Of a stretch of DNA of 64,000 bases, positions 2,794 through 63,658 are shown piece by piece. The number at the start of each line of letters is the position of its first letter. Position 1 is the first letter of the stretch. Source of the stretch: Ruficoccus amylovorans. Lineage in GTDB: Bacteria; Verrucomicrobiota; Verrucomicrobiia; Opitutales; Cerasicoccaceae. The position numbers were made by a program, and so were the translations under genes. The notes beneath the pieces are model-generated. The model had not been told where the DNA came from, made no database searches, and saw only the letters and a list, made by a program, of their open reading frames with translations. The stretch is from positions 496,001 through 560,000 of the forward strand of contig NZ_JACHVB010000035.1 of NCBI RefSeq assembly GCF_014230085.1. The letters are read 5' to 3'.

Positions 2794-5028
2794 TTAGCTG
2801 AGTTGCCGCCAGACAAAGGCGACGGCGATGCAGAGGGGGATGCCAAAGGCGAAGGGCAAGAGGGTGGCCAGGGCGGTCCAGCCGGCGCTGCGGGTTTCCT
2901 TGTAAATGGTGTAGATCGTCGTGCTGCATGGGTTGTGGCAGAGGCAGAATAACAGCAGGCAGACGGCGGTCAGGGTGGTCCAGCCTCCGGCGGTGAGGAT
3001 CTGGTGGACGATCCCGTCGTCGGCCTCAAACATCACCCCCGCGCCCGCGCCGAGGTCGGTCATCCCGGTTTGCAGGACGGTCAGCATGAGGATGGTCGGG
3101 ATGACGATTTCGTTGGCCGGGATGGCGATGATGTAGGCGAGCAGGATTAGCCCGCTCAGGCCCATCACCCAGCCCAGCGGCTCCAGCCAGCCGCTGAAAA
3201 TCGTGGCCAGCGGTTCGCCGCCGACGTGGACATTGGCGACGAGCCAGATGACGGCCCCCGCGGGGACGGCGAAGACGATGGCCCGCCACAGCACGAACAG
3301 TGTGCGGTCGATAATTGAGGTGTAGAGCGTCTGCCAGAAGTTCGGCGGTCGGTAGGGGGGCAGTTCCAGACTGAAGGTGGAGGCCTCGCCGCGCAGGACG
3401 GTTTTGCTGAGAATCCACGAGCTGAGAAAGGTCAGCCCGAAGCCGAACACGACCACGCTGAAGACGACCGCCGTCGCCGCCAGGGTCGAGAACTGCGGCG
3501 AGACGAGCGCCCCGAAAAAGATGGTCGCGATCAGGATGAGCGTGGGCCAGCGTCCGTTGCAGACCGAGAAGTTGTTCGTAATCATCGCGATCAGACGCTC
3601 GCGGGGCGAGTCGATCACCCGGCAGGCGATGATGCCCGCCGCGTTGCAGCCCAGCCCCATCGACATGGTCAGGGCCTGTTTACCGTGCGCCCCGACGGCC
3701 TGGAAAATACGGTCGAGGTTAAAGGCTACCCTCGGCAGGTAGCCGAGGTCTTCCAGCAGGGTGAAGAGGGGAAAGAAAATCGCCATCGGCGGCAGCATGA
3801 CGCTGATGACCCAGGCGCAGGAGAGGTACATGCCGTCCACGGTCAGCCCGGTCAGCCAGCCGGGGAAGCCGAGATCGACCGTTAACTGCCGCAGCGCCGG
3901 GTGTCCCCAGTCCAGGAGGATACCGGCGAGGAAGCTGGAGGGGTAATTGGCCCCGATGATCGTGATCCACAGGATGAGGGCGAAGATGAGCAGCATGACC
4001 GGGTAGCCGGTCAGCGGGTGGGTGAGCACGCGGTCGAGCCGGGCCTGCCAGCGGGCGCGGGCGGAGTCCGAGGGCTGGCGCACGCAGGCGGAGAAAATCT
4101 TCGAGGACTCGGAGTAAATCTGCTCCGTCAGGCGGTCGTGGAGGTTGCCGGGCGCGTGCCAGCGGAACGACTCGGCCAGCTCGCAGAGGCGTTCACCCGC
4201 TTCGCGGTCGTGGTCGCTGATGGCGTGGGGGCCGGATTTGCCACCGCTGGCGGCGTGGTCGGCGGCCAGTTGGCCAATCTCGCCCGAGCGCAGGGAGGCA
4301 GTCACGGTCTCGTCGGCGCAGAGCAGACGCAGCGCGATCCAGGGAACGTGCCGCAGGGTGGGGAAGGCTTCACGCAGGGCCTGGCTCAGGGTCTCAAGCG
4401 GCTGCTCGATCTCCGGAATGGCCAGCGGCAGGCGTCGTCCGGCGGGGCGCTCACCGGCGGCCACGCGGGCGAGTGCCTGGAGCAGTTCGTCGATGCCTTC
4501 GCCGCGCCGGGCCGCGCAGGGGATGACGGGCACGCCCAGCTCGGCTTCGAGCGCGGGCACGTCGATCTCGATCCGGTGCGCGCGGGCCTCGTCCATGAGA
4601 TTCAGGCACACGACCACGCGCTTGGTGATCTGGAGAATTTGCAGGACGAGGTTGAGGTTGCGCTCGATGGCGGTGCTGTCGATCACGACGAGCGTTACGT
4701 CGGGGCGGCCGAAGAGGACAAAGTCGCGGGCCACTTCCTCGTCCGGTGAGGCCGAGAGCAGGGAATACGTGCCGGGCAGATCCACGAGTCGGTAGGTTTT
4801 CCCTCCATAGGAAAAAGCTCCCTCGGCGCGGGCGATGGTCTTGCCGGGCCAGTTGCCGGTGTGCTGGTGGAGCCCGGTCAGCCGGTTGAAGACGGTGCTC
4901 TTGCCCGTGTTTGGATTACCCGCCAGCGCGATGACCGCGTCGCAGTTGTCGGCGTTCAGACCCAGTGGGCGCGAAGCCGCCGCCGGTGGGCAGTGGCAGG
5001 ACGTGGAGGTGCATTGGGAACACTTCAT
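2794..5028 (-). CDS. feoB: Ferrous iron transport protein B
   Basis: Inner-membrane Fe(II) importer with a cytoplasmic G domain. In the 744 residues I see G1 GNPNTGKS (37-44), G3 DLPG (83-86) and G4 NLMD (143-146), then a helical spacer and a membrane core with Gate motifs such as MSMGLGCNAAGIIACR and the late SWILSK/NEIVIPT segments. The N-terminus MKCSQCTSTSCHC is unusually Cys-rich, which could be a redox or metal-delivery site (inference). Its ATG overlaps the stop of the upstream DtxR-FeoA gene as ATGA, so the pair is translationally coupled. No separate feoA or feoC is present; the FeoA module is in the upstream fusion. Confidence 0.96.
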   Translation of the reverse strand: MKCSQCTSTSCHCPPAAASRPLGLNADNCDAVIALAGNPNTGKSTVFNRLTGLHQHTGNWPGKTIARAEGAFSYGGKTYRLVDLPGTYSLLSASPDEEVARDFVLFGRPDVTLVVIDSTAIERNLNLVLQILQITKRVVVCLNLMDEARAHRIEIDVPALEAELGVPVIPCAARRGEGIDELLQALARVAAGERPAGRRLPLAIPEIEQPLETLSQALREAFPTLRHVPWIALRLLCADETVTASLRSGEIGQLAADHAASGGKSGPHAISDHDREAGERLCELAESFRWHAPGNLHDRLTEQIYSESSKIFSACVRQPSDSARARWQARLDRVLTHPLTGYPVMLLIFALILWITIIGANYPSSFLAGILLDWGHPALRQLTVDLGFPGWLTGLTVDGMYLSCAWVISVMLPPMAIFFPLFTLLEDLGYLPRVAFNLDRIFQAVGAHGKQALTMSMGLGCNAAGIIACRVIDSPRERLIAMITNNFSVCNGRWPTLILIATIFFGALVSPQFSTLAATAVVFSVVVFGFGLTFLSSWILSKTVLRGEASTFSLELPPYRPPNFWQTLYTSIIDRTLFVLWRAIVFAVPAGAVIWLVANVHVGGEPLATIFSGWLEPLGWVMGLSGLILLAYIIAIPANEIVIPTILMLTVLQTGMTDLGAGAGVMFEADDGIVHQILTAGGWTTLTAVCLLLFCLCHNPCSTTIYTIYKETRSAGWTALATLLPFAFGIPLCIAVAFVWRQLS

Positions 5029-5990
5029 GAACGGGCCTCCGGTTCGGGTGTTTCGATCACGATCTGGTCGGCCTGTTCCGGGCGCAGAGCCACCAGGGTA
5101 TTACGAATCCGGTAGGCCACGGGGCTGCCCATCGGGCTTTTCAGCTCGACGCTCACGCGGCTTGGCGGGACAAAGCCCAGGTCAAGCAGGCGCGTGCGTT
5201 CGGAGCCGGTGCAGGAAGCCAGTAGGCGAACGACGATGGCCTCCTCTCCTTCGGCCAGGCTGGAGAGCCGGGCCACGCGGGGCAGTTCGTCGCAGTCGGC
5301 TTCGGCCACGCGAACGAGCGCCGCGGCGGCGCGGTCGAGTGTGCACTCGCGCCCCTCGACCCAGATGCGCATCTGGTCATTCCCCCGTTCGACCACCTTC
5401 AAGAGCATGCCGGGAGCCAGCCCCAACTCGACCAGCAGGTGGCCGAGGGCTTCGGGTTCGTCGCCGACGTGGAGGACGCGGACGATAGCCCCCAACGGGG
5501 AGGCTTCAAGCGCGCCGCCTGTCAGCTCGGGTAGTTCCCCGGCTCGGGTCGGGATCGGGTCGCCGTGCGGGTCGTAGCGCGGGTGCCCGAGCTGCTGGGA
5601 AAGCGCATCCACGTCCTCGGCGGAGATGTGGTGCTCGGCCTCGTCCGCTTTGCGGTGCCAGCGGGCGGGGCGCTCGTCGGTCATACGGGCCAGGTAGGTC
5701 TCGTAGAGGCGGTGCGCCCGGATGACCTGACGGGCGTAGCTGCGGCCCTCGTCGGTCATCCCGACAGCGGAACCCTGAAGACTGACCAGCCCGGCCTGAC
5801 GCATCCGTTTGAGCAGGTCCACCGTTTCGTTCAGCGAGCGGTTAAGCACACCGGCGACACCTTCCGCTGTGGCCAGTTGCCGCTCACCCTCGTATTCGCA
5901 CTCGTGCAGGTATTTGAGGGTGTCTTCCGTGCAGACACGGTCCAGCGACTGGGTGGAACGGTATTGCGAGAGCGGAGAGGGTTCGGCCAT
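5025..5990 (-). CDS. DtxR-family iron regulator fused to a FeoA domain
   Basis: A 321-residue protein combining a metal-dependent repressor with Feo machinery. The N-terminal part is a winged helix (DTLKYLHECEYEGERQLATA then LNRSLNETVDLLKRMRQAGL) and a dimer/metal domain with the AEHHISAEDVDAL motif. After ~residue 150 come two beta-rich SH3/FeoA-like modules, the second a clear FeoA (LLDLGFVPPSRVSVELKSPM, then AYRIRNTLVALRPEQA). It overlaps feoB by 4 bp. ATG 5988-5990 (MAEPSPLS) is preferred; an in-frame GTG at 6051-6053 would run through the palindrome I read as an operator. It probably represses its own operon when iron is sufficient (inference). Confidence 0.87.
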   Translation of the reverse strand: MAEPSPLSQYRSTQSLDRVCTEDTLKYLHECEYEGERQLATAEGVAGVLNRSLNETVDLLKRMRQAGLVSLQGSAVGMTDEGRSYARQVIRAHRLYETYLARMTDERPARWHRKADEAEHHISAEDVDALSQQLGHPRYDPHGDPIPTRAGELPELTGGALEASPLGAIVRVLHVGDEPEALGHLLVELGLAPGMLLKVVERGNDQMRIWVEGRECTLDRAAAALVRVAEADCDELPRVARLSSLAEGEEAIVVRLLASCTGSERTRLLDLGFVPPSRVSVELKSPMGSPVAYRIRNTLVALRPEQADQIVIETPEPEARS

Positions 5991-51900: not shown

Positions 51901-51948
51901 AGATAGTTGAATTTTGGGTCAAGGTGAGTTTATGTGTGCCCCTCTCAC

Positions 51949-53139
51949 ATGTACCCGCGCGACACAAAAGACCGGTGGTTTCAAGGGCAGGGCCTTTGGA
52001 GCCATGTCCCCGAAAGTGACTGGAAAAACTGGAAGTGGCAGTTGAAAAACCGCCTCACTTCCGTGGAGCAAGTCGAGAAGTACCTGGAACTGACGCCGCA
52101 GGAGCGGGCCGGTTGCTACTTCTCGGGGCGCAAGCTCGCCCTGGCCATCACGCCGTATTTCTTCAACCTGATCGACCGCGACGATCCGAACTGCCCCATC
52201 CGGCGGCAGATCATCCCCCGCGAGGAAGAGATGGAGACCGCGCCCGAGGAACTGCTCGACCCGGTCGGCGAGGAGGGGAGTATGGCCGTCAAGGGCATCG
52301 TCCACCGCTACCCGGACCGGGTGCTGTTTCTGGTCACGGACCGCTGCGCCTCCTACTGCCGCTACTGCACGCGTTCGCGGCTGGTTTCCAACGCGCAGGA
52401 TTACAATTTCCACCCGGAGTTCGAGTCCGGGCTGGCTTACATCGAGTCGCATCCGGAAATCCGCGACGTGCTCCTCTCCGGCGGCGATCCGCTGCTGCTC
52501 TCGGACCGTAAGCTCGACTACTTGCTGGGCCGCCTGCGGGCCATTCCGCACGTCGAGTTTATCCGCATCGGCTCGCGCATCCCGGTTTTTCTGCCACAGC
52601 GGATCACGCCCGAGCTGTGCGAAATCTTTAAAAAGCACGGCCCGATCTGGATGAGCATCCACGTCAACCATCCCCGTGAGTGCACCGAGGAACTGCGTCA
52701 GGCGACAGAACGCCTGTCCTACGCCGGGGTGCCACTGGGCAACCAGAGCGTGTTGCTCAAGGGCGTCAATGACAACGTCGAGACGATGAAAAGCCTCGTG
52801 CACCGCCTCCTGATGATGCGCGTGCGCCCATACTACCTTTACCAGTGCGACCTGATTACCGGCAGCGCCCACCTGCGCACGGATGTGCGGACCGGGATCG
52901 AGCTGATCAACCAGCTTCGTGGCCACACGACCGGTTATGCGATCCCGCAGTACGTGATCGACGCCCCCGGCGGCGGCGGCAAGGTCCCGATCAACCCCGA
53001 ATACGTGAAGAAAATCACCGATTCGGAGGTCGTCCTGCGCAACTTCCAGGGCAAGACCTACCGGTATCCGCTCGTCAACGGCGTGCCCGTTGCCTCCGGC
53101 GTCCGCCCGGAGGAGGTCAGCGTTGGCTGCCCCGGCTAG
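51949..53139 (+). CDS. KamA-family radical SAM aminomutase (lysine 2,3-aminomutase-like)
   Basis: Predicted SAM- and PLP-dependent enzyme that moves an amino group from C2 to C3 of lysine or a related amino acid, anaerobically. The 396-residue protein has the cluster motif DRCASYCRYCTRSR (Cys133, 137, 140), the core loop LLSGGDPLLL, and DAPGGGGKVPINPEYV with the PLP-binding Lys. It is longer than EpmB-type relatives and matches KamA length. No ablB-like acetyltransferase is adjacent, so a beta-lysine solute route is not proven. Start ATG 51949; a GTG five codons upstream is possible. Its TAG stop is followed by GTCGTCCC, resembling the start of the 16.7-kb repeat. Confidence 0.85.
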   Translation: MYPRDTKDRWFQGQGLWSHVPESDWKNWKWQLKNRLTSVEQVEKYLELTPQERAGCYFSGRKLALAITPYFFNLIDRDDPNCPIRRQIIPREEEMETAPEELLDPVGEEGSMAVKGIVHRYPDRVLFLVTDRCASYCRYCTRSRLVSNAQDYNFHPEFESGLAYIESHPEIRDVLLSGGDPLLLSDRKLDYLLGRLRAIPHVEFIRIGSRIPVFLPQRITPELCEIFKKHGPIWMSIHVNHPRECTEELRQATERLSYAGVPLGNQSVLLKGVNDNVETMKSLVHRLLMMRVRPYYLYQCDLITGSAHLRTDVRTGIELINQLRGHTTGYAIPQYVIDAPGGGGKVPINPEYVKKITDSEVVLRNFQGKTYRYPLVNGVPVASGVRPEEVSVGCPG

Positions 53140-53353: not shown

Positions 53354-54577
53354 ATGGCAGTTCCGATTTCCCAAGCCTGGACCGTGGCCACCTATGTGCT
53401 CGGCCAAAAACTGCGTGGTCGCAAGCGCTACCCGCTGGTCCTCATGCTCGAACCGCTTTTCCGCTGCAACCTCGCCTGTGAAGGCTGCGGCAAGATACAG
53501 TTCCCGGACCACATCCTGAAGAAGCGCGTCTCGGCCGAGAAGGCGCTGGCCGCCGCCGAAGAGTGTGGTGCGCCTATCGTCTCCATCGCCGGGGGCGAGC
53601 CGCTGATCCATCCCGAGATCGAGCAGATCGTGGACGGCCTGATCAAGCAGGGACGCTACATTTACCTTTGCACGAACGCCCTCCTGCTGGAGCGCGCGCT
53701 CAAAAAGTTCACGCCGCACAAGCAGTTGACCTTCTCCGTGCACATGGACGGGCTCAAGGAAGAGCACGACCGCTCCGTCAGCCGCGACGGCACCTTTGAC
53801 ATCGCCCTCAAGGCGATCAAGAAGGCCGTCGAAATGGGCTTCCGCGTGACCACGAACACCACGCTGTTCAACAACGCTGACCCCGAGCGCGTCCACGAGT
53901 TCTTCGACCTGATGATGGAAGCCGGTGTCGAGAGCATGATGACCTCGCCGGGCTACCCCTACGAAAAGGCCCCCGACCAGGAAATCTTCCTCGAACGCGA
54001 CCGCACCAAGGTGCTCTTCAAGAAGATTCTCGGCGGTGCCAAGAAGGAATGGCGTTTCAACCATAGCCCGAACTTCCTGGCCTTCCTCAAGGGCGATATC
54101 GACTACGACTGCACCCCCTGGGGCAACCCGACTTATAACGTTTTCGGTTGGCAGAAGCCCTGTTACCTCCTTGGCGACGGCTACACCAAGACTTTTAAGC
54201 AGATGATGGAGACCACCGAGTGGTCCCGCTACGGCCAGCACGGTACGGACGAGCGCTGTAAGGACTGTATGGTGCACTGCGGCTACGAAGCCAGCGCGGT
54301 GGACGACAGCTTCTCGCTCGGCGGTGCCATTCGCATGTGGAAGGCCAACAAGAACATGCACAAGCCCGTCACCTTCACCGAGGACGAGGAAAAGCTCTAC
54401 GCGCTGCTCCGCGCTGACGCTATGAAGCGCGCCGAGTCCTGCGGCGCCAGCTCCTGCTGCTCCTCCTCCAAGGACGTGGCCGGCAGCGAAAAACTGCTGG
54501 AAAACATCGCTCCGAATCGCGTCACCCGCCAGGTGCAGCGCGAGGAGAATGTCCCGGCCAGCGGCACCGACCGCTAG
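53354..54577 (+). CDS. hpnH: Adenosyl-hopene transferase HpnH (radical SAM)
   Basis: Joins the 5'-deoxyadenosyl group of SAM to diploptene, the first step of the extended (C35) hopanoid side chain. The 407-residue protein begins with a membrane-associating stretch and the HpnH opening RYPLVLMLEPLFRCNLACEG, with Cys38, 42 and 45 binding the [4Fe-4S] cluster. GKIQFPDHILKKRVS and IAGGEPLIHPEI complete the core. A Cys-rich C-terminal part includes RCKDCMVHCGYEAS and SCGASSCCSSS; clustering of Cys near the end (about residues 363-373) is unusual. ATG 53354 is consistent with the family. A strong terminator follows. Confidence 0.93.
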   Translation: MAVPISQAWTVATYVLGQKLRGRKRYPLVLMLEPLFRCNLACEGCGKIQFPDHILKKRVSAEKALAAAEECGAPIVSIAGGEPLIHPEIEQIVDGLIKQGRYIYLCTNALLLERALKKFTPHKQLTFSVHMDGLKEEHDRSVSRDGTFDIALKAIKKAVEMGFRVTTNTTLFNNADPERVHEFFDLMMEAGVESMMTSPGYPYEKAPDQEIFLERDRTKVLFKKILGGAKKEWRFNHSPNFLAFLKGDIDYDCTPWGNPTYNVFGWQKPCYLLGDGYTKTFKQMMETTEWSRYGQHGTDERCKDCMVHCGYEASAVDDSFSLGGAIRMWKANKNMHKPVTFTEDEEKLYALLRADAMKRAESCGASSCCSSSKDVAGSEKLLENIAPNRVTRQVQREENVPASGTDR

Positions 54578-54770: not shown

Positions 54771-55403
54771 CTACAGCTCGGCAGCGATGGCCTCGGCGAG
54801 GGCTTCGCGGACGGGGCCCCAGCTTTTGAGCAGGCGGCGCAGGCGTCCAATATCGCCGGGGTGGGTGAGCATGTGCCCGGCCATGCGTAATGGGGTTTCC
54901 TTACCGGTTTCGCGGTTGTAGCCCTTGGCAAGAAAGGCGGGCAACTCGTCCGTGGCGGTGTCGCTGATGGCACGGATGACGGTCAACGGGATACCGGCCT
55001 CGGCAGCGGCTTCCACCACAGGGGCCGATTCCATGTCCACCACGGGGCAGCCGGTTTGCGCGAAAAGCACGGCCTTGGCGGCGGGGGTGGAGACGACTTC
55101 GCTGGCGGTGTGGATCTTGCCTTCGCCGCGGTCAATCACAATATCCCCGAGCTTGAGCGCCGGATCGAGCGCCCCCCCGAATCCGGCCAGGATAACCCGC
55201 TTCGGCTTGACCAGGCGCATAGCCTCGCGGGCGGGTTCAACACAGTGGACCGGTCCCATCCCGATGAGGGAGACGTGGACGGTTTGCTTTTCCCAGTCAC
55301 CAACCCAGGCTGGACGATGTCCCATCTCGTAGGAGGCGGCATGTGCCAGCGCCTGGATGAAAAGGTCAGCTTCGAAACGGGTCGGAATGAGAATCAGGGA
55401 CAT
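54771..55403 (-). CDS. hpnG: HpnG-like nucleosidase (adenosylhopane to ribosylhopane)
   Basis: A 210-residue member of the PNP/MTA-SAH nucleosidase fold, expected to remove adenine from adenosylhopane, following HpnH. The sequence shows the conserved Asp region (IVIDRGEGKIHTASEV), VHVSLIGMGPVHCVEPA, the late VVDMESAPVVEAA with the catalytic Met-Glu, and VIRAISDTATDELP carrying the active-site Asp. The next gene upstream on the strand is vapC, 11 bp away. Assignment as HpnG rests on fold plus hpnH/hpnC/hpnD context; other nucleosidases are possible. Confidence 0.82.
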   Translation of the reverse strand: MSLILIPTRFEADLFIQALAHAASYEMGHRPAWVGDWEKQTVHVSLIGMGPVHCVEPAREAMRLVKPKRVILAGFGGALDPALKLGDIVIDRGEGKIHTASEVVSTPAAKAVLFAQTGCPVVDMESAPVVEAAAEAGIPLTVIRAISDTATDELPAFLAKGYNRETGKETPLRMAGHMLTHPGDIGRLRRLLKSWGPVREALAEAIAAEL

Positions 55404-55414
55404 GTGGGAAAGAA

Positions 55415-55828
55415 TTAAAAAAGCAGGCGTGCCCCAGGGAGGGCGGCCATTTTACGGTCATTGGTGAGGATGTGGGCTTCGCGGGCGAGATAGTCTTGCG
55501 CAATCAGCCGATCAAGGAGGCCGCAGCCGCCCTTTGAACGCAAGATATTTACGACTTCAAAACCGTTCAGCGGAGTAATCATGCTGCCAGTCAGGAGGGT
55601 ATCAATGGCCTTTCTGGCGTCGTTTTTGCTGATTTTATAGTGATGCTGGAGCGTGATGTAGGCTTCTCCAATCACTTGGTTGGAGACGGTGAGCTCGGCG
55701 GATGCTTCCGCCTCCAGCAACTTTTCGAGGGCTGTTACCGTTTTGCGGAAATCCGCTTCCGGATGCCCGGTGAGCAGGCGCACGAAGACGGAGGTGTCAA
55801 TCCCGTAGGTCTGAGTCGAGCGCGGCAT
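55415..55828 (-). CDS. VapC-type PIN-domain toxin
   Basis: A 137-residue PIN ribonuclease of the VapC type. The acidic active-site residues are present: Asp11 in YGIDTSVFVRLL, Glu55 in VIGEAY, Asp106 in CGLLDRLIAQ and Asp124 in TNDRKMAAL. Overlaps the antitoxin gene by 32 bp, the usual coupled arrangement. It ends 11 bp before hpnG, so the module splits hpnG from hpnDE. Confidence 0.9.
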   Translation of the reverse strand: MPRSTQTYGIDTSVFVRLLTGHPEADFRKTVTALEKLLEAEASAELTVSNQVIGEAYITLQHHYKISKNDARKAIDTLLTGSMITPLNGFEVVNILRSKGGCGLLDRLIAQDYLAREAHILTNDRKMAALPGARLLF

Positions 55829-56039
55829 GGCGGATGGCAGCGATGTCCGGAGCGGGCAGGTTGGCGGCGATTTTATCTTTCAGCGGGGCGAGGTTTGCCC
55901 TGTTGAAGCGGCGGGGCTTGATGAGAAACCCGTCGGCGGATTCCTCAATGACGAGCGTGTCGCCGGCCTTGACGCCGAGGCGTTCCACCACATGACGGGG
56001 GAAAGTCACCTGGCGTTTACTGGTAAGTCGGACCTGCAT
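55797..56039 (-). CDS. AbrB/VapB-type antitoxin
   Basis: An 80-residue antitoxin. The N-terminal swapped-hairpin DNA-binding domain is VRLTSKRQVTFPRHVVERLG with DTLVIEES, and the C-terminal tail (PDIAAIRHAALDSDLRD) probably docks on VapC. It starts with ATG 56037-56039; the AAGGAG four bases upstream is one of the few Shine-Dalgarno-like sites in the window, though the mapped promoter candidate would make the mRNA almost leaderless. Confidence 0.87.
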   Translation of the reverse strand: MQVRLTSKRQVTFPRHVVERLGVKAGDTLVIEESADGFLIKPRRFNRANLAPLKDKIAANLPAPDIAAIRHAALDSDLRD

Positions 56040-56090: not shown

Positions 56091-58295
56091 TTACCCATCC
56101 AGCGCCGCGCTGACGGCGAAGCCGCTGAGGGCGGCGCTTTCGAGGGTGGCGGGCAGGCCGGTGGCGGTGTAGTCGCCCGCGAGGAGGAAGTTGCTCCAGG
56201 GGCTGGCCTTGGGGCCGGGGCGGTGAGGCTCGGTGGCGGGCTGGGCGGCGAAGGTCGCGTCGCGGCTTTTGTAAACGAGCGAACGGGCGATCTGCATCTC
56301 CGTGGCGGCGGGGAAGAATTTCTCCAGCTCAGTGCGCAGGAGGGTGACGATTTCGTCGCTTTTCATGTCGAGCCAAGCCTGGGCGGTGCTGGAAATGACG
56401 GCGTAAAGGTGTTTGCCCGCGTACTCGGGGGGGAGGGTGTGGGTGCGATCGAAGACCCAGTGCACGGGCGAGTCGAGCAGCCCGACGAAATCTGCCCCGT
56501 TGTCGTAGAGGGGGCGGTCGGTGACGAGGTGGATGCCCATGATCGGGGCGGAGGGGATAGCCGCGAGGTGGTCGCGCAGGCGCGAGCCCTCGGGCAGGAG
56601 CGACCGCAGGGCCGTCCAGGGCAGGGCGCTGACGAAGAGCTCCGCCTCGATCCGCTCGCCTCGTGGCGTTTCCACTGCCGTGACGCGCTGGATGCCGGTT
56701 TCGCGGTCTTCGGCCACCTCGACGCGGGCGATTTTTGAGGACAGGCTGAGGCTGCCGCCGATGCTGTTGAGGAAAAGGCTCGTCTCGGGTTCGAAGAGTT
56801 CGCTCAGCCCGACCTTGCTCACGATGATGTCGGCGGCGTCGGATTTGCCAAAGAGCGAGCGGCGCAGGGTCTCGTGCAGGAGCCGGGCGCTGGCGGTGGA
56901 GGTGGGCTCGTTGAGGGCGGCCACGCAGAAGGGTTCCCACAGGGCGCGGACGGAGCCCGCGGTCTGCCCGTGGCGGCGCAGCCAGTGGGCGGCGGTCTCG
57001 TCGTCGGCGGGGACAGCCTCCAGGCGCATGACCAGCCCCATCCGCAGGATGGCGAGCCGGTCGGCGGTGTTCAGTTCGGAAAATTTGAAAAGCCCGGCCA
57101 GCAGGTTGAAGGGCGCGGGCAAGGGTTGTGCGGCTAATTCGGACCAGCGTCCGCCGGGGCTGACATAGGGCACGCGCATGCTCGGCTGGCGCTCCAGTTT
57201 GTCGGTGATGCCGAGCAGCTCGGCCAGTTTGAGAAAGCCCGTGTAGCAGCCCATGACGATGTGCTGGCCGTTGTCGATGGTGAGGCCGGTGGCGGCATCG
57301 GTCAGGCTGTGGGCACGCCCGCCCAGGTAGGTGCGGGCCTCGTAAAGGTGCGGCGTGAAGCCCTCCAGGCCGAGTTCGAGCGCGGCGGTGATCCCGGCCA
57401 CGCCCCCGCCGAGGACGGCAGCGCGGCCCGGCAGGCTGCGGGGACGTCCGGGGCGTTTGGCTTCGCGCAGGGTGCGCCACAGGAGCCGGAGTTTTTGCGG
57501 CTTGGAGAGGCGGGTGCGCTCGACGGTGAGCGCGAAGCCCCCGGCGGCGATTTTTTCTAAAATTTCCTCGTAAAACGCGCCCATGACGAGCGCGGCCTTG
57601 AGGTTCTGGCGCTCGGAATCGGGCAGGAGCCGCCGGGCCTTGTTGAAGAAGTGCTTGCAGCGGTAGTAGCAGAGGCGGAAGAGCTTCTGGCAGGCGGGGT
57701 TGGCGGCGGGGTTGGCCAGGTCGTCCTCGCTCACTTCGAGGGCGGCCAGTTCGTCCTGGGGCAGATAGACGCGGCCCATCTTGACCTTGTCCTCGACCAC
57801 GTCGCGCAGGATGTTGGTGAACTGGAGTGCGTAGCCGAGGGTTTCGGCAAACTCCGGAGTGCGCGGATGCGTGCAGCCGAAAATCTTGATCGAGACCAGC
57901 CCCACGGCGGAGGCGACCCCGTAGCAGTAGCGGCGCAGGTGCTCGAAGCTGGCGAAGCGCGCCCCGCCGATGTCCATGCTCACCCCGTCGATGATGGCCA
58001 GCAGGTCGGCCTTTTCGACCCCGTAGCGGTCGATGACGGGTTTCATTTCGGCCATCAACTTGATGGGTACGCCGTCCACGCGGTAGCAGGACTCGATCTC
58101 CTTGCGCCAGGCGTCGAGCTCGGCGCGCTTCTGATCGTCGGTGCGTCCGGGTTCGTCGGCGATGTCGTCGGCGATGCGGCAGAAATCGTAAAACACTGCC
58201 ATAGCCTCCCGGCGCTCGGGTTCGAGCGACATGAAGGTGAAGGCGAGGTTGGATTTCTTGCGGGCCTGAACCGCTTCTTTGGACTCGGACGACAT
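56091..58295 (-). CDS. hpnDE: HpnD-HpnE fusion: presqualene diphosphate synthase plus squalene-forming desaturase-like oxidoreductase
   Basis: A 734-residue two-domain protein. Residues 1-~275 are a squalene/phytoene synthase of the HpnD kind, with the two Asp-rich motifs DDIAD (43-47) and DVVED (165-169), which forms presqualene diphosphate from two farnesyl diphosphates. After a short linker (~280-292) an HpnE-type FAD flavoprotein begins at AAVLGGGVAGITAALELG (GGGVAG 296-301) and runs to the end with the amine-oxidase-like fold (EARTYLGGRAHSL, FLLAGDYTATGLPATLESA). HpnE reduces hydroxysqualene to squalene. In most hopanoid bacteria these are separate proteins. HpnC, the middle enzyme, is encoded nearby. 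ATG 58293-58295 is used. Confidence 0.9.
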   Translation of the reverse strand: MSSESKEAVQARKKSNLAFTFMSLEPERREAMAVFYDFCRIADDIADEPGRTDDQKRAELDAWRKEIESCYRVDGVPIKLMAEMKPVIDRYGVEKADLLAIIDGVSMDIGGARFASFEHLRRYCYGVASAVGLVSIKIFGCTHPRTPEFAETLGYALQFTNILRDVVEDKVKMGRVYLPQDELAALEVSEDDLANPAANPACQKLFRLCYYRCKHFFNKARRLLPDSERQNLKAALVMGAFYEEILEKIAAGGFALTVERTRLSKPQKLRLLWRTLREAKRPGRPRSLPGRAAVLGGGVAGITAALELGLEGFTPHLYEARTYLGGRAHSLTDAATGLTIDNGQHIVMGCYTGFLKLAELLGITDKLERQPSMRVPYVSPGGRWSELAAQPLPAPFNLLAGLFKFSELNTADRLAILRMGLVMRLEAVPADDETAAHWLRRHGQTAGSVRALWEPFCVAALNEPTSTASARLLHETLRRSLFGKSDAADIIVSKVGLSELFEPETSLFLNSIGGSLSLSSKIARVEVAEDRETGIQRVTAVETPRGERIEAELFVSALPWTALRSLLPEGSRLRDHLAAIPSAPIMGIHLVTDRPLYDNGADFVGLLDSPVHWVFDRTHTLPPEYAGKHLYAVISSTAQAWLDMKSDEIVTLLRTELEKFFPAATEMQIARSLVYKSRDATFAAQPATEPHRPGPKASPWSNFLLAGDYTATGLPATLESAALSGFAVSAALDG

Positions 58296-58600: not shown

Positions 58601-59182
58601 ATGGACGGTTTTGATTACACAGGTTGGATTATTATTCCGGTGCTCATCTTTCTGGCCCGCCTGATGGACGTGAGTCTGGCGACGTTTCGCCACATCCTCA
58701 TTTTCAAGGGCATGCGCAAGATTGTCCCGGCCATCGGCTTCGTCGAGGTGCTGATCTGGCTGGTGGCGATCACCCAGGTGATGCAGAACCTGAGCAACAT
58801 CGCCAGTTACCTGGGGTTCGCTTCCGGGTTCGCGGCGGGGACGTACCTGGGGATTGTACTGGAGGAGAAAATCGCCCTCGGGCACCAGCTCGTGCGGATC
58901 ATCACCCAGCGCAAGACCCCGGAACTGCGGGCCGCGCTCAGTACCAGCCGCTTCGGGGTGACGGTGGTCCCGGCCCAGGGCTCGAAGGGACCGGTGGATA
59001 TCTTCTTCGTCGCGGTCGAACGCAAGCGCATGAAAAAACTGATCAAGTGCATCCGCGAATGCGACCCGGACCTGTTCTTCACCATCGAGGATGTGCGTTC
59101 GGTCAGTTCAGCAGGCGTCTGGGGACACAATGCGGACTTTGGCGGCGAACTGGCGATGGAAGGTACGCTCAAGAAAAAATAA
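58601..59182 (+). CDS. UPF0316/DUF2179-DUF5698 membrane protein
   Basis: A 193-residue membrane protein of unknown role. Three TM helices lie at about 8-28 (WIIIPVLIFLARLMDVSL), 40-60 (IVPAIGFVEVLIWLVAITQ) and 65-90 (LSNIASYLGFASGFAAG). The cytoplasmic part has ALSTSRFGVTVVPAQGSKGP and FFTIEDVRSVSS, which fits the DUF2179/UPF0316 family found next to membrane or cyclic-nucleotide-linked proteins. It has no conserved catalytic set. It lies between the two minus-strand squalene genes, on the opposite strand. Confidence 0.8.
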   Translation: MDGFDYTGWIIIPVLIFLARLMDVSLATFRHILIFKGMRKIVPAIGFVEVLIWLVAITQVMQNLSNIASYLGFASGFAAGTYLGIVLEEKIALGHQLVRIITQRKTPELRAALSTSRFGVTVVPAQGSKGPVDIFFVAVERKRMKKLIKCIRECDPDLFFTIEDVRSVSSAGVWGHNADFGGELAMEGTLKKK

Positions 59183-59286: not shown

Positions 59287-60183
59287 TCAGCGGGTGAAGG
59301 CGGCTTTTTGCAGGAGCTTGACTTTGTCGAAGCCGTTGAGCTTGGGGCGGGCGCTGACGGTGTCGTAGTCGCGGGAGACGATTTTATCCAGAATGGTCTG
59401 GCCGCCGAGCCAGGTTAGGCGGATTTCCATACTCAGGGGGAAGGGCAGGTGGCGGCTGAGGACGCGGCCCTCATTGAACATGGCGTAGGTGCGGTCCACC
59501 TGGTGCTTGAGGCAGCGGCGGAACTCCGGGGTGGCCGGAGGCTGGGAGAACATCGCCTCGGTCACGCCAAAGGTGGTCCAGTCCTCCTGTGGGACGTAGA
59601 TGCGGCCGTCCTTCTTGATGTCCACGCTCACGTCCTGCCAGAAGTTGGCGAGCTGGAGCGCCGAGCAAATCTGGTCCGACCAGGCGAAGTTCTGCTCGCT
59701 GGCGTGGCCGTGGAGGATGAGCACGAGCCGTCCCACCGGGTTCGCGCTGCGGCGGCAGTAGTCGAGGACTTCGGCAAAAGTGGAGTAGCGCAGTTTGACA
59801 CAGTCCTGCTTGAACGCGCTGAGCAGGTCGCGGAAAAGCTGCACTGGCGCGCCGGTCTTCTTGATGGTGTCGCCGAGGGCGAGGAAGATCCAGGCGTATT
59901 TCTCCTCCAGCGGGCGACCGGCGGCGGCGTTGTCGAGCTGTTCCTCGTAGGCGTCGAGCGCGGCCACGCGCTCCTGCGGGGTAAAAACGCGGCCATCGGG
60001 AGCGGTGCTTTCGGAGGCCGTCCAGCCCTCGTCTGCGAGGTCGTCCGCCGTCCGCGCAAAGGCGTACACCGCGCTCACATAGGGGCGGATACTCTTGGGC
60101 ACGAGCCGGGCGACGGGAAAGTTCTCGTAGTGCTCCCGGGTCAGGTCGTGGCAGCGGGCGTAGGATTCTTCGACAGTCATCAT
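59287..60183 (-). CDS. hpnC: HpnC-like hydroxysqualene synthase
   Basis: A 298-residue squalene/phytoene synthase-fold enzyme that converts presqualene diphosphate to hydroxysqualene. The two metal motifs are TADDLADEG (~residues 44-52) and NFWQDVSVDIKKDGRIYVPQ, and the start MTVEESYARCHDLTREHYENF matches HpnC. The double ATG at 60178-60183 leaves one-residue uncertainty. It forms, with the hpnDE fusion 1 kb away, the complete farnesyl-diphosphate-to-squalene route. Divergent from the exporter genes. Confidence 0.9.
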   Translation of the reverse strand: MMTVEESYARCHDLTREHYENFPVARLVPKSIRPYVSAVYAFARTADDLADEGWTASESTAPDGRVFTPQERVAALDAYEEQLDNAAAGRPLEEKYAWIFLALGDTIKKTGAPVQLFRDLLSAFKQDCVKLRYSTFAEVLDYCRRSANPVGRLVLILHGHASEQNFAWSDQICSALQLANFWQDVSVDIKKDGRIYVPQEDWTTFGVTEAMFSQPPATPEFRRCLKHQVDRTYAMFNEGRVLSRHLPFPLSMEIRLTWLGGQTILDKIVSRDYDTVSARPKLNGFDKVKLLQKAAFTR

Positions 60184-60371
60184 GGAAACGCCCCAGCAAA
60201 ACCGCCCCCCGCCCCCGGCGCAAGCCCCGGTTGCGGGCCGCGCTAGCTATGTGCGTGTGCGGTTTGTTCGCCCCGTGGGGTACTTGTTCGATTCTTCATT
60301 CGCCTGTGCGGTCACGCGCCGTTGCGCGTTTGCGTATTGAAGTCTGGGCGGGGATAGGCATATTGCCGCCT

Positions 60372-61610
60372 ATGATGAGAATTTCTCCAAGGCGTAAGCC
60401 GCTGGGCCTGCGCCCGCTTGTGCTTTTGCTCGTGCTGGGTGCCGCCGCTGTGGCACAGGGGCAGTCCGAGTCGCGGCAGGTGGCCGCGCTGGGCAAGATC
60501 ATCCCCGGCGAGGGCGTGGTCAATGTCGCCGCCCCGGCGGGCGAGACCGGCCAGGCCATCGTGGCCGAGGTCAGCGTCACCCCCGGCCAGACTGTGAAAA
60601 AAGGCGACCCGCTGGCTGTGCTGACGACCAAGCCCCTGCTTGAGGCCGCTGTGTTCGCCGCGCAAAAGAGTGCCGCCGCCGCCCAGGCCGATGCCGCCGC
60701 CGCGCAGGCCGGGATTGAAGTGGCGCAAAAGCAGGTCGCCGTTTTCGACCATCAGCTTCAGTCGCTGGATGCCCGCGTTTCCGCCGCGCAGAAGGAGGCT
60801 TCCGCCGCGCAGATGGGCGTGGATCAGGCGCAGAAGGCCATCGCCCGCGCCGAGGCCGAGTATCAGGCCGCCGTGGCCCGCCTGCAAGGCGAGATCGACG
60901 AGCACACCCGGCTGATCAAGGAGTGGGACCCCGGCACCAAGGACCGCGTGCAGATCCAGTCCCAGCAGCGGATTCTCGCGCTGGAGATTAAAAAGCTCGG
61001 CTCGACCAAGGCCGCGCAGGACAACGAATTGAAATCCGCCTACAACACCGCGCAGGCGCAGGCCGATGCCGCCGCCGCGCAGGTGGACGTGGTCGCCTCG
61101 GAGCGGCAGTCGATCCTCGACCAGAAGGCTATCGCGGAGGTGCAGTTGGCTCAGGTGCAGGCGCAGGCCGATGCCGCCGCCGCGCAGGCCGCCGCCGCGC
61201 AGGAGCAGGTCCGGCAAGCCCAGGCCCGCCTGGCCACCGGGACGGTGTTTTCGCCGTTGAACGGTGTGGTGGTCTCCGTCAATGCCTGGCCCGGCACCGC
61301 TGTCGAGTTGGGTGGAGTGGCCTCCGTGGCCGACACGACGGAGATGTTTGTCGAGGCCGAGGTCTACGTGGACGACGTTTCCAAGGTCAAGGCCGGGCAG
61401 GCCGCGACCGTTTCCGGCCAGCCGCTGGGCAAGGAGTTGACCGGCAAGGTTGACCGCGTGGGCGTGCAGGTCGCCGCCAACGCGGTTTTCAGCCGCGACC
61501 CGACGGCTTTCGCCGACCAGCGCGTGGTCAAGGTCCGGATCAAACTCGACGACCCCGCCGCCGTGCGTTCGCTCATTGGCGCGCAGGTCACGGTCAAGAT
61601 CAAGCCCTGA
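60372..61610 (+). CDS. HlyD-family periplasmic adaptor of a DevBCA-like ABC exporter
   Basis: A 412-residue membrane-fusion subunit. A signal or anchor (PLGLRPLVLLLVLGAAAVAQ) leads to a lipoyl half (ALGKIIPGEGVVNVAAPAGE), a very long Ala/Gln-rich coiled coil (~residues 95-310) and the second lipoyl and barrel part (ATGTVFSPLNGVVVSVNAWP, FADQRVVKVRIKLDDP). The coiled coil includes three copies of AQADAAAAQ, coded by nearly identical 28-nt stretches (60681-60708, 61056-61083, 61161-61188). It links the inner-membrane permease to an outer-membrane channel; no TolC gene is in the window. The upstream ATG was rejected as it adds non-signal residues. Confidence 0.85.
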   Translation: MMRISPRRKPLGLRPLVLLLVLGAAAVAQGQSESRQVAALGKIIPGEGVVNVAAPAGETGQAIVAEVSVTPGQTVKKGDPLAVLTTKPLLEAAVFAAQKSAAAAQADAAAAQAGIEVAQKQVAVFDHQLQSLDARVSAAQKEASAAQMGVDQAQKAIARAEAEYQAAVARLQGEIDEHTRLIKEWDPGTKDRVQIQSQQRILALEIKKLGSTKAAQDNELKSAYNTAQAQADAAAAQVDVVASERQSILDQKAIAEVQLAQVQAQADAAAAQAAAAQEQVRQAQARLATGTVFSPLNGVVVSVNAWPGTAVELGGVASVADTTEMFVEAEVYVDDVSKVKAGQAATVSGQPLGKELTGKVDRVGVQVAANAVFSRDPTAFADQRVVKVRIKLDDPAAVRSLIGAQVTVKIKP

Positions 61611-61634
61611 TCCGGGTCAGACGATGGCCGAGAA

Positions 61635-61683
61635 GGACACCAAGCATTTTAACTGAAACTCCGTGTCCCTGTGCCTCCGTGTT
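61635..61683. repeat. Degenerate CACAGAG-type remnant between adaptor and permease
   Basis: GGACAC (61635-61640) and GTGTCC (61663-61668) are inverted, and CTCCGTGTCCCTGTGCCTCC (61659-61678) matches the complement of the dispersed GGCACAGGGACACGGAG motif. It lies between two co-directional genes rather than at a convergent junction. Confidence 0.45.
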
Positions 61684-61782
61684 AGATAACCGAAATGACT
61701 ACAAACACCGGGAAATGACAGCATGGCTGTGATGATAGACCAAACGCCCACCAGCTCCCAAACACCGACGAGCGCCCATTAG

Positions 61783-62955
61783 ATGCTTTTAAACAAACTC
61801 ATGCCGCTGGGCATTCCGCTGGCCTGGCTCAACCTCATCAAGGAGAAGAAGCGCTTCTTCGCGGCAGTGGCGGGGATCACCTTCGCCGTCACGATGATGA
61901 TGTTCCAGATGGGGCTCAACTCCGCGCTCTTCAAGCAGGTCGTCGGCCCGCATGCCGAGATGGCGGCGGACATCTTCATGGTCAGCAGCCAGTACGAGTA
62001 CCTCGGCGTCAGCAAGGGCTTCCCGCTGCGGCGGCTGGTGCAGGCCGAGGGTGAGCCGGGCGTGGCGCAGACCGTACCGCTCTACGTCGGCAGCCTGCCC
62101 ATGCTTAACACCGCCAACCGCAGCACGCGCGAGGTCTTTATCATGGCCTGGGATCCGGCGGTGCAGGCTTTTGACGACGAGGAGATCGAGAGCCAGCGCT
62201 GGAAGCTCAAGCGCGAGGGCGTCGCCCTCTACGACCGGCTCTCGCGCCCTGAGTTGGGGCCGTTTGTGCAGGAGGTGGATGAGACCGGCGAGGCCGTGAC
62301 CGAGGTGGCTAACCGCCGCATGGCCATCGAGGGGTTGTTCTCGATTTCTCCGACCTTCGTGGCGGACGGTAACATGCTCACCAGTGCCGACACTTTCCTC
62401 CCCCTGTGGCCGGGCGGCGACCCCTCCGTGGTCAGCCTCGGCCTCATCCGCCTGGAGCCGGGCACGGACCCCGCCGCTGTGGTGGCGGGACTGACGGATT
62501 ATCTGCCCGACGATGTGCGCGTCTATACCCGGCAGGCTTTCCTCGACTACGAGATGCAGTACTGGCGCGAGCGCACGCCCATCGGTTTCGTTATCACGGC
62601 TTCGATGGCGGTGGCGCTGATCGTGGGCGCGGTCATCGTGTATCAGATTCTCTATACAGATGTGAACGATCACCTGGAGGAGTACGCCACGCTCAAGTCT
62701 ATTGGCTTCCGTGACAGCTACTTCACCAGCGTGATTTTACAGGAGTCGGTTATTTTAAGCGTGTTCGGGTTTATCCCTGGGACGCTTTTCACCTGGGTGC
62801 TGTTTTACTTCACTCGGCAAATAGCCCACATGGCCACGTACCTGAGCCTGCTCAACTGCGCCATCATCTTCGGGCTGACGCTGTTCATGTGCCTGACGGC
62901 GGGCGCATTGGCCACCCGTAAACTCCGCCACGCCAACCCGGCCGAAATTTTCTAG
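61783..62955 (+). CDS. FtsX-type ABC transporter permease (DevC-like)
   Basis: A 390-residue inner-membrane permease with four TM helices: one near 24-44 (FFAAVAGITFAVTMMMFQ), then a ~210-residue periplasmic domain, and three helices near 270-290 (IGFVITASMAVALIVGAVIV), 325-350 and 360-382. The C-terminal core (DVNDHLEEYATLKSIGFRDSYF) is typical of FtsX/DevC permeases. It lies 172 bp after the adaptor and 4 bp before the ATPase. DevC works with DevB and DevA in glycolipid export in cyanobacteria; substrate here is unknown. Confidence 0.88.
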   Translation: MLLNKLMPLGIPLAWLNLIKEKKRFFAAVAGITFAVTMMMFQMGLNSALFKQVVGPHAEMAADIFMVSSQYEYLGVSKGFPLRRLVQAEGEPGVAQTVPLYVGSLPMLNTANRSTREVFIMAWDPAVQAFDDEEIESQRWKLKREGVALYDRLSRPELGPFVQEVDETGEAVTEVANRRMAIEGLFSISPTFVADGNMLTSADTFLPLWPGGDPSVVSLGLIRLEPGTDPAAVVAGLTDYLPDDVRVYTRQAFLDYEMQYWRERTPIGFVITASMAVALIVGAVIVYQILYTDVNDHLEEYATLKSIGFRDSYFTSVILQESVILSVFGFIPGTLFTWVLFYFTRQIAHMATYLSLLNCAIIFGLTLFMCLTAGALATRKLRHANPAEIF

Positions 62956-62959
62956 CGAC

Positions 62960-63658
62960 ATGTCCAGGGAACCCATTATCCGCGTCAAAGACCTCCACTA
63001 CTCCTTCCGCGAAGGGGAGGGGATGAAGGAGGTCCTGCACGGCGTTTCGGCGGACTTTTACCCCGGCGAAATCGTCATCATCATGGGCCCCTCCGGCTCG
63101 GGTAAGACGACCTTTCTCAAGCTGCTGGGCGGTTTGCGCACGGTGCAGAAGGGCAGCATCGAGATCGACGGCCAACTGCTCGAAAAGGGGCGCAAGAAGG
63201 ACCTCGTCAGCGTGCGCCGAAAGATCGGTTTCATCTTTCAGAACCATCACCTGATCGCCTCGCTCAGCGTCTGCCAGAATGTCATGATGCCCCTGTCTTT
63301 CAACCCGAGGGAAACGGCGGCTACGGCCCGGCCTCAGGCGCTTGATATTTTGAAACAGGTTGGCCTGGCCGATCACGTGAATAAAAAGCCCTCGCAGCTC
63401 TCCGGCGGGCAAAAGCAGCGGGTGGCCATCGCCCGCGCCCTCGTGCACAACCCGCGCATCGTGCTGGCGGACGAGCCGACGGCCTCGCTCGACGGCAAGA
63501 CCGGCCGCGAAGTGGTGGACCACATCCAGCGCCTGGCCAAGCAGTCCGGAGCGACCATCCTCCTGGTTACGCACGACAGCCGTATCCTCGACGTGGCCGA
63601 CCGCCTGATCGAGCTGGAGGACGGCGTGCTCAACTCCGACCCGCCCATCGAGGGGTAA
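62960..63658 (+). CDS. ABC transporter ATP-binding protein (DevA/LolD-like)
   Basis: A 232-residue ATPase. Walker A GPSGSGKT (43-50), Q-loop FIFQNHHLI, signature LSGGQ (147-151), Walker B RIVLADEP (166-173) and H-loop LLVTHD are all present. The helical region and length are of the LolD/MacB/DevA group. It lies four bases after the permease stop, so the three exporter genes form one operon with hlyD. It would energise removal of a lipid or peptide from the inner membrane. Confidence 0.93.
   Translation: MSREPIIRVKDLHYSFREGEGMKEVLHGVSADFYPGEIVIIMGPSGSGKTTFLKLLGGLRTVQKGSIEIDGQLLEKGRKKDLVSVRRKIGFIFQNHHLIASLSVCQNVMMPLSFNPRETAATARPQALDILKQVGLADHVNKKPSQLSGGQKQRVAIARALVHNPRIVLADEPTASLDGKTGREVVDHIQRLAKQSGATILLVTHDSRILDVADRLIELEDGVLNSDPPIEG

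Follow-up and report, generated by a model that had tools for sequence, protein, structure and literature searches.

The available parts of two papers describe HpnD, HpnC and HpnE as a three-enzyme route to squalene (PMC7839719, PMC12583986), in which HpnD makes presqualene diphosphate (PMC7839719). The locus of Ruficoccus amylovorans analysed here holds the first and last of these enzymes in one open reading frame and the middle one in a separate gene, which raises the question of whether the join is real, how widely it is found, when it arose, and what it means for a pathway whose second step falls to another protein. The product of HpnC is hydroxysqualene and that of HpnE is squalene, from which hopanoid membrane lipids are made.

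The hpnDE gene and its surroundings

The window (the whole stretch of DNA that was analysed, 64,000 nucleotides) contained an hpnDE open reading frame on the minus strand, running from an ATG at 58295 to a TAA ending at 56091 as a single frame of 734 codons (Table 1). In the NCBIfam scan the HpnE half matched TIGR03467 at 367.5 bits, above the curated cut-off of 283.05, and the HpnD half matched TIGR03465 at 254.5 bits, which was the best model for the region and fell short of its curated cut-off of 278.6. The order of the Pfam matches along the protein, SQS_PSY followed by Amino_oxidase, was in agreement with this result. Since the HpnD half lies below the curated cut-off, an annotation pipeline relying on that value could report hpnD as missing.

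Table 1. Features of the hpnDE locus, in window positions.
Feature	Position	Strand	Basis or remark
hpnDE, presqualene diphosphate synthase (HpnD) / hydroxysqualene dehydroxylase (HpnE), 734 aa	56091..58295	-	ORF and family models
HpnD domain, residues 11-276	57468..58265	-	TIGR03465 match; D43, D47, D165 and D169 present
Linker, residues 277-292, between the two NCBIfam matches	57420..57467	-	rich in proline and basic residues
HpnE domain, residues 293-731	56103..57419	-	TIGR03467 match; FAD GxGxxG at 296-301
hpnC, separate gene upstream	59287..60183	-	TIGR03464, 298.6 bits, cut-off 250.45 passed
DUF5698/DUF2179 protein gene, between hpnC and hpnDE, not of the pathway	58601..59182	+	model scans
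hpnH, adenosyl-hopene transferase	53354..54577	+	516.9 bits, cut-off passed
HpnG-like phosphorylase gene	54771..55403	-	94.8 bits, under the HpnG cut-off of 187.1

The squalene/phytoene synthase fold carries two aspartate-rich DxxxD motifs, and GxGxxG is an FAD-binding motif. Both DxxxD motifs were present in the HpnD half (D43/D47 and D165/D169). Over the fused domains of the relatives described below, a count which takes in the divergent fusion L128, residues D43, D47, D108, R164, D165, D169 and R175 were kept in 64/64 HpnD domains, and G296, G298 and G301 in 64/64 HpnE domains. No transmembrane segment was evident in the HpnDE protein of the window (top 19-residue hydropathy mean 1.63).

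The first-pass annotation had described HpnD and HpnE as one polypeptide with HpnC apart, and the 734-codon frame, the two domain matches and the separate hpnC gene agree with that description; the usual form of HpnCDE, three separate polypeptides, was not what was found here. It had also held that the frame runs on across the linker and is no sequencing artefact, which is upheld by the reading-frame translation, with no stop codon between residues 275 and 292, and by the occurrence of the same fusion in relatives. The window's gene has none of the codons ATG, GTG and TTG from about residue 262 to the GxGxxG motif, so that HpnE could not be started separately with the motif whole. The same was true of 21/66 fused loci; the other 45 had at least one of these codons before GxGxxG (ATG in 20/66), and, to judge from the sequence, HpnE might also be translated separately from an internal start in them. 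HpnDE is predicted to be a bifunctional squalene-pathway enzyme of steps 1 and 3 that works with a separate HpnC (probability about 0.83).

The rest of the pathway was sought in the same genome, the assembly of which is 97.78% complete. The only two SQS_PSY matches were HpnC and HpnDE, and no separate HpnD was found by this search. A squalene-hopene cyclase (SHC) encoded elsewhere scored 642.5 bits, above its cut-off of 431.1, and HpnC and a squalene user are both present. The distance from the HpnC frame to the first matched HpnD residue was 998 nt here versus 316 nt in a genome of the same genus (G001).

Other genes flank the locus. Just downstream of hpnDE (55415-56039, minus strand) lie genes for a PIN-domain protein and a MazE/AbrB-type partner, likely a toxin-antitoxin pair. 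Beside hpnH, at 51934-53139 (plus strand), is the gene of a KamA-family radical SAM protein, for which lysine 2,3-aminomutase was the best model (480 bits, missing the cut-off of 525.4). Upstream of hpnC, exporter genes occupy 60231-63658 (plus strand); they include a DevB-family adaptor and a DevC permease, both over cut-off, and an ABC-type ATPase called by eye from the sequence.

Distribution and origin of the fusion

A full-length fusion was found in all 10 sampled genomes of the window's family, the other nine proteins being 60-84% identical to that of the window, and in 3 further genomes of the order (54 near genomes searched). In the class, a 9-row fusion alignment served as the query against 384 genomes, 316 of which matched at 1e-40. 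A match was counted as full length when it lay in one place, started at or before position 12 and ended at or after position 720 of the 726-position model; 64/384 genomes had such a match and 8 more a partial one (G281, G368, G387, G401, G408, G490, G525 and G534), some of these at contig ends, some in short frames and that of G281 divergent. One genome counted as full length (G466) had a stop flagged in the match, and its 717-aa frame still holds both domains. The remaining 244 of the 316 matched less, among the matches listed in the HpnD half only, and they are taken to have no attached HpnE because HpnE matches at 1e-30 occurred in only 81/384 class genomes. HpnE passed its cut-off in 64/384 genomes, 63 of them with HpnD in the same frame: these 63 were 62 full-length fusions and G387, where a single frame of 922 aa holds HpnD and HpnE and the HpnE match is broken into two pieces. 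The remaining genome was G368, where HpnE lies at a contig end and HpnD on a different contig.

At the level of the order, 273 genomes were searched for HpnE and 15 passed the cut-off; HpnD was in the same frame at 30/30 fetched order-level HpnE loci, some of them below cut-off. In a sample of the phylum (n = 387, class make-up not given) the 69/69 matching genomes came from the same class. The survey of verrucomicrobial genomes that had been suggested for this fusion was thus carried out, and it places the fusion over one clade and not in this genome specially. An assembly or sequencing artefact that joined two genes has a negligible chance of being the explanation: no point was found in its favour, and it would need an identical join error in dozens of assemblies, given the fusion in 10/10 genomes of the family and 64/384 of the class, eight single-contig assemblies among them (G004, G285, G301, G309, G317, G323, G328 and G332). 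A triple HpnC-HpnD-HpnE frame in one relative was set aside, as a stretch of unknown bases lies inside the frame.

Unfused HpnE-like proteins were also seen, a result that speaks against any plain rule of constant fusion. Two genomes of the order sample, G135 and G263, encode such proteins, which scored 208.4 and 185.2 bits against TIGR03467 (below cut-off) and 92 and 110 bits on a profile of fused HpnE; neither HpnC nor HpnD was found in the 8.5 and 9.5 kb around these genes. G387 has, besides its fusion, a second, unfused copy (227.7 bits, below cut-off). Seven more class genomes (G283, G378, G396, G413, G436, G441 and G574) gave weak matches that scored 109-122 bits, the frames being 418-556 aa long; with G135 and G263 this makes nine class genomes, apart from G387, with a weaker unfused match. 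All these unfused HpnE-like proteins are provisionally taken as related flavoproteins and not as HpnE.

In a tree of 76 HpnD and HpnC domains, 34/35 fused HpnD domains formed one clade (SH-aLRT 93), with 20/22 standalone HpnD-like rows of the same class as the nearest relatives of fused HpnD. A tree of 47 HpnE domains placed the same 34 fusions in one clade (SH-aLRT 92). Both trees come from short searches, and the supports of 93 and 92 are below the level of 95. Since each tree groups 34 of the 35 fusions, a single ancient event is likely: the fusion probably arose once, in an ancestor common to a large clade within the class, and was retained thereafter. The exception, the divergent fusion L128 at 3707-5962 of its locus in G281, scored 229.2 bits for HpnD and 200.0 bits for HpnE, both below cut-off, and fell outside the fusion clade in both trees; it is perhaps an independent fusion, and a single HpnD clade including it was not rejected (p-AU 0.241).

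Inside the fusion clade, a family designated f35 contained PF02461 (methane/ammonia monooxygenase) in 6/6 genomes tested, from which we infer that it corresponds to Methylacidiphilaceae. The available part of a paper on such methanotrophs lists hpnCDE for the acidophiles among them and squalene synthase for the neutrophiles, with no mention of a fusion (PMC9543262).

The simplest route to the fusion would be through loss of the stop codon that separated neighbouring hpnD and hpnE genes. Such an intermediate was not seen within the class, no HpnE being found beside the standalone HpnD-like genes in the 19 stretches read. Outside the class, a search of 72,556 plasmid records with the fusion protein gave 228 matches, 26 of which covered 80% or more of the query. 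Of 14 plasmid loci read, 13 held both HpnD and HpnE, and in 13/13 of these, from Proteobacteria and Streptomyces, the two were separate. In 4/5 Azospirillum loci (L132, L136, L137 and L144) hpnD and hpnE share a reading frame that is interrupted by one stop codon between the genes, an arrangement which shows how easily an HpnDE fusion could arise. A fusion in Azospirillum itself had been suggested by a single tblastn piece covering residues 9-733; the genes proved separate. A plasmid locus of Microvirga has HpnC and HpnD fused instead.

Partners and possible roles of the fused protein

We infer the chemistry of each domain from knowledge of its family, and the product of the HpnD half in particular is so assigned because this half scores below the curated cut-off. 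The N-terminal HpnD domain would condense two farnesyl diphosphates to presqualene diphosphate, the separate HpnC would convert this to hydroxysqualene, and the C-terminal HpnE flavoprotein domain would reduce the hydroxysqualene to squalene. Squalene would then supply hopanoid synthesis through squalene-hopene cyclase and, in this genome, probably a C30 carotenoid cluster as well.

That a C30 carotenoid, and not a hopanoid, is the main product is improbable. The genome does contain two crtI-family desaturases over cut-off (G000:C23:8799-13401; L168 and L169), beside which lie glycosyltransferase-like and aldehyde-dehydrogenase-like genes with models below cut-off. The SQS_PSY matches being HpnC and HpnDE only, no separate CrtB or CrtM was found, so that the desaturases probably use squalene, and the gene content makes a squalene-based C30 carotenoid cluster the likely reading of the group. 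According to the available part of PMC10448405, both Methylobacterium extorquens and P. limnophila draw on HpnCDE squalene for their C30 carotenoids. However, SHC and HpnH are encoded in this same genome, and SHC (searched at 1e-60) occurred in 64/64 full-length and 8/8 partial fusion genomes, which makes hopanoids the common use. SHC was found in 115/244 of the other profile-matching genomes and in 3/68 of the non-matching ones.

The search for HpnC covered 60 selected genomes: 11 carried the fusion, and the remaining 49, of which 43 had SHC and 6 lacked it, came from the 244 with a lesser match. HpnC passed its cut-off in 10/11 fusion genomes versus 0/49 genomes with a standalone HpnD-like protein; in the eleventh fusion genome (G521) HpnC was in pieces. 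The best HpnC score among the 49 was 224.4 bits (G277), for a protein whose best model was HpnD, at 301.9 bits. The class thus falls into two kinds of genome, one with HpnC plus HpnDE and the other with a standalone HpnD-like protein.

The standalone HpnD-like proteins, which the tree places nearest to the fused HpnD domain, differ from the fusion in having no HpnE attached or adjoining in the stretches read, and their genomes differ from the fusion genomes in the HpnC result just given. Many class genomes (L095-L127 and L129-L131) combine such a protein with SHC, and neither HpnE nor HpnC was found beside the standalone gene in 19 stretches of 7.7-8.1 kb. At least one further squalene/phytoene-synthase-like match was present in 36/49 tested genomes with a standalone HpnD-like protein; of five such matches scanned, 0/5 passed a curated cut-off.

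Among the fusion loci, hpnC lay upstream on the same strand in 47/66, and in 40 it ended no more than 124 nt before the first HpnD residue matched; the 7 loci with wider spacing all belonged to the window's family. In the other 19/66 no HpnC was seen in the fetched flank, which was short or cut in many. No HpnC adjoined the fusion in G004, in G005 or in those f35 loci that were read, and this separation weakens the case for an obligate co-translated complex.

A physical complex of HpnC with HpnDE is nevertheless plausible; the first-pass annotation had suggested that the fusion may organise such a complex at the membrane, and the support for this is indirect. HpnC would dock on the fusion and the intermediates would stay local, with HpnC handing hydroxysqualene back to the fused HpnE and HpnD acting as the central hub of a metabolon. 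This proposal, which we hold only tentatively, draws on the co-occurrence of HpnC with the fusion, on the close upstream position of hpnC in 40/66 loci, and on the fusion of HpnD on either side, to HpnE here and to HpnC in Microvirga and in other bacteria, namely Acidobacteria subdivision 2 and specific Actinobacteria and Alphaproteobacteria in the available part of PMC5462960. That HpnD is fused to HpnC in some organisms and to HpnE in others makes an HpnD-centred assembly a fair prediction. Against it, hpnC has moved away in several lineages, the structure model of HpnDE alone, built from a 7-row alignment, reached a mean pLDDT of only 53.2 (pTM 0.36) and was of too low quality for any conclusion, and a shared operon with a fixed dose would explain the same data.

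The chances are evenly balanced that the fusion fixes nothing beyond a 1:1 dose and a shared location, the intermediates diffusing in the membrane without channelling. The order of reactions skips the fusion partner, the linker is short (8-21 residues between the domains over 66 fusion loci) and variable in sequence, and where plasmids of Proteobacteria and Streptomyces had the two enzymes at one locus they were separate genes (13/13 loci); on the other side, retention across a whole clade suggests some benefit, and operon structure could set the dose too. Extended to bacteria generally, the metabolon proposal would make HpnC, HpnD and HpnE one assembly with HpnD as its hub, HpnDE and HpnCD being two frozen halves of it and HpnC returning hydroxysqualene to the HpnE half; we offer this as a speculative possibility, somewhat against the odds.

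Real, probably old and found in many Verrucomicrobia, the fusion is no peculiarity of a single genome, and it hints at an assembly of the three enzymes. HpnDE is a construct already linked by nature, with which one could ask whether HpnC, HpnD and HpnE work as a metabolon, and such a test could help to explain how hydroxysqualene, a poorly soluble intermediate, is handled.

Comparison with known systems

No description of an HpnDE fusion was found in the literature searched, most subscription papers being outside the reach of the search. The nearest likeness is the HpnCD fusion, which, as given in the available part of PMC5462960, likewise holds two enzymes of the same pathway in one frame; it joins steps 2 and 1, whereas HpnDE joins steps 1 and 3 and leaves HpnC separate. 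With the HpnC/HpnD/HpnE pathway of hopanoid producers the present system shares the same three enzyme families and the same hopanoid partners, and it differs in having HpnD and HpnE in one polypeptide, the two being separate in the 13/13 plasmid loci described above.
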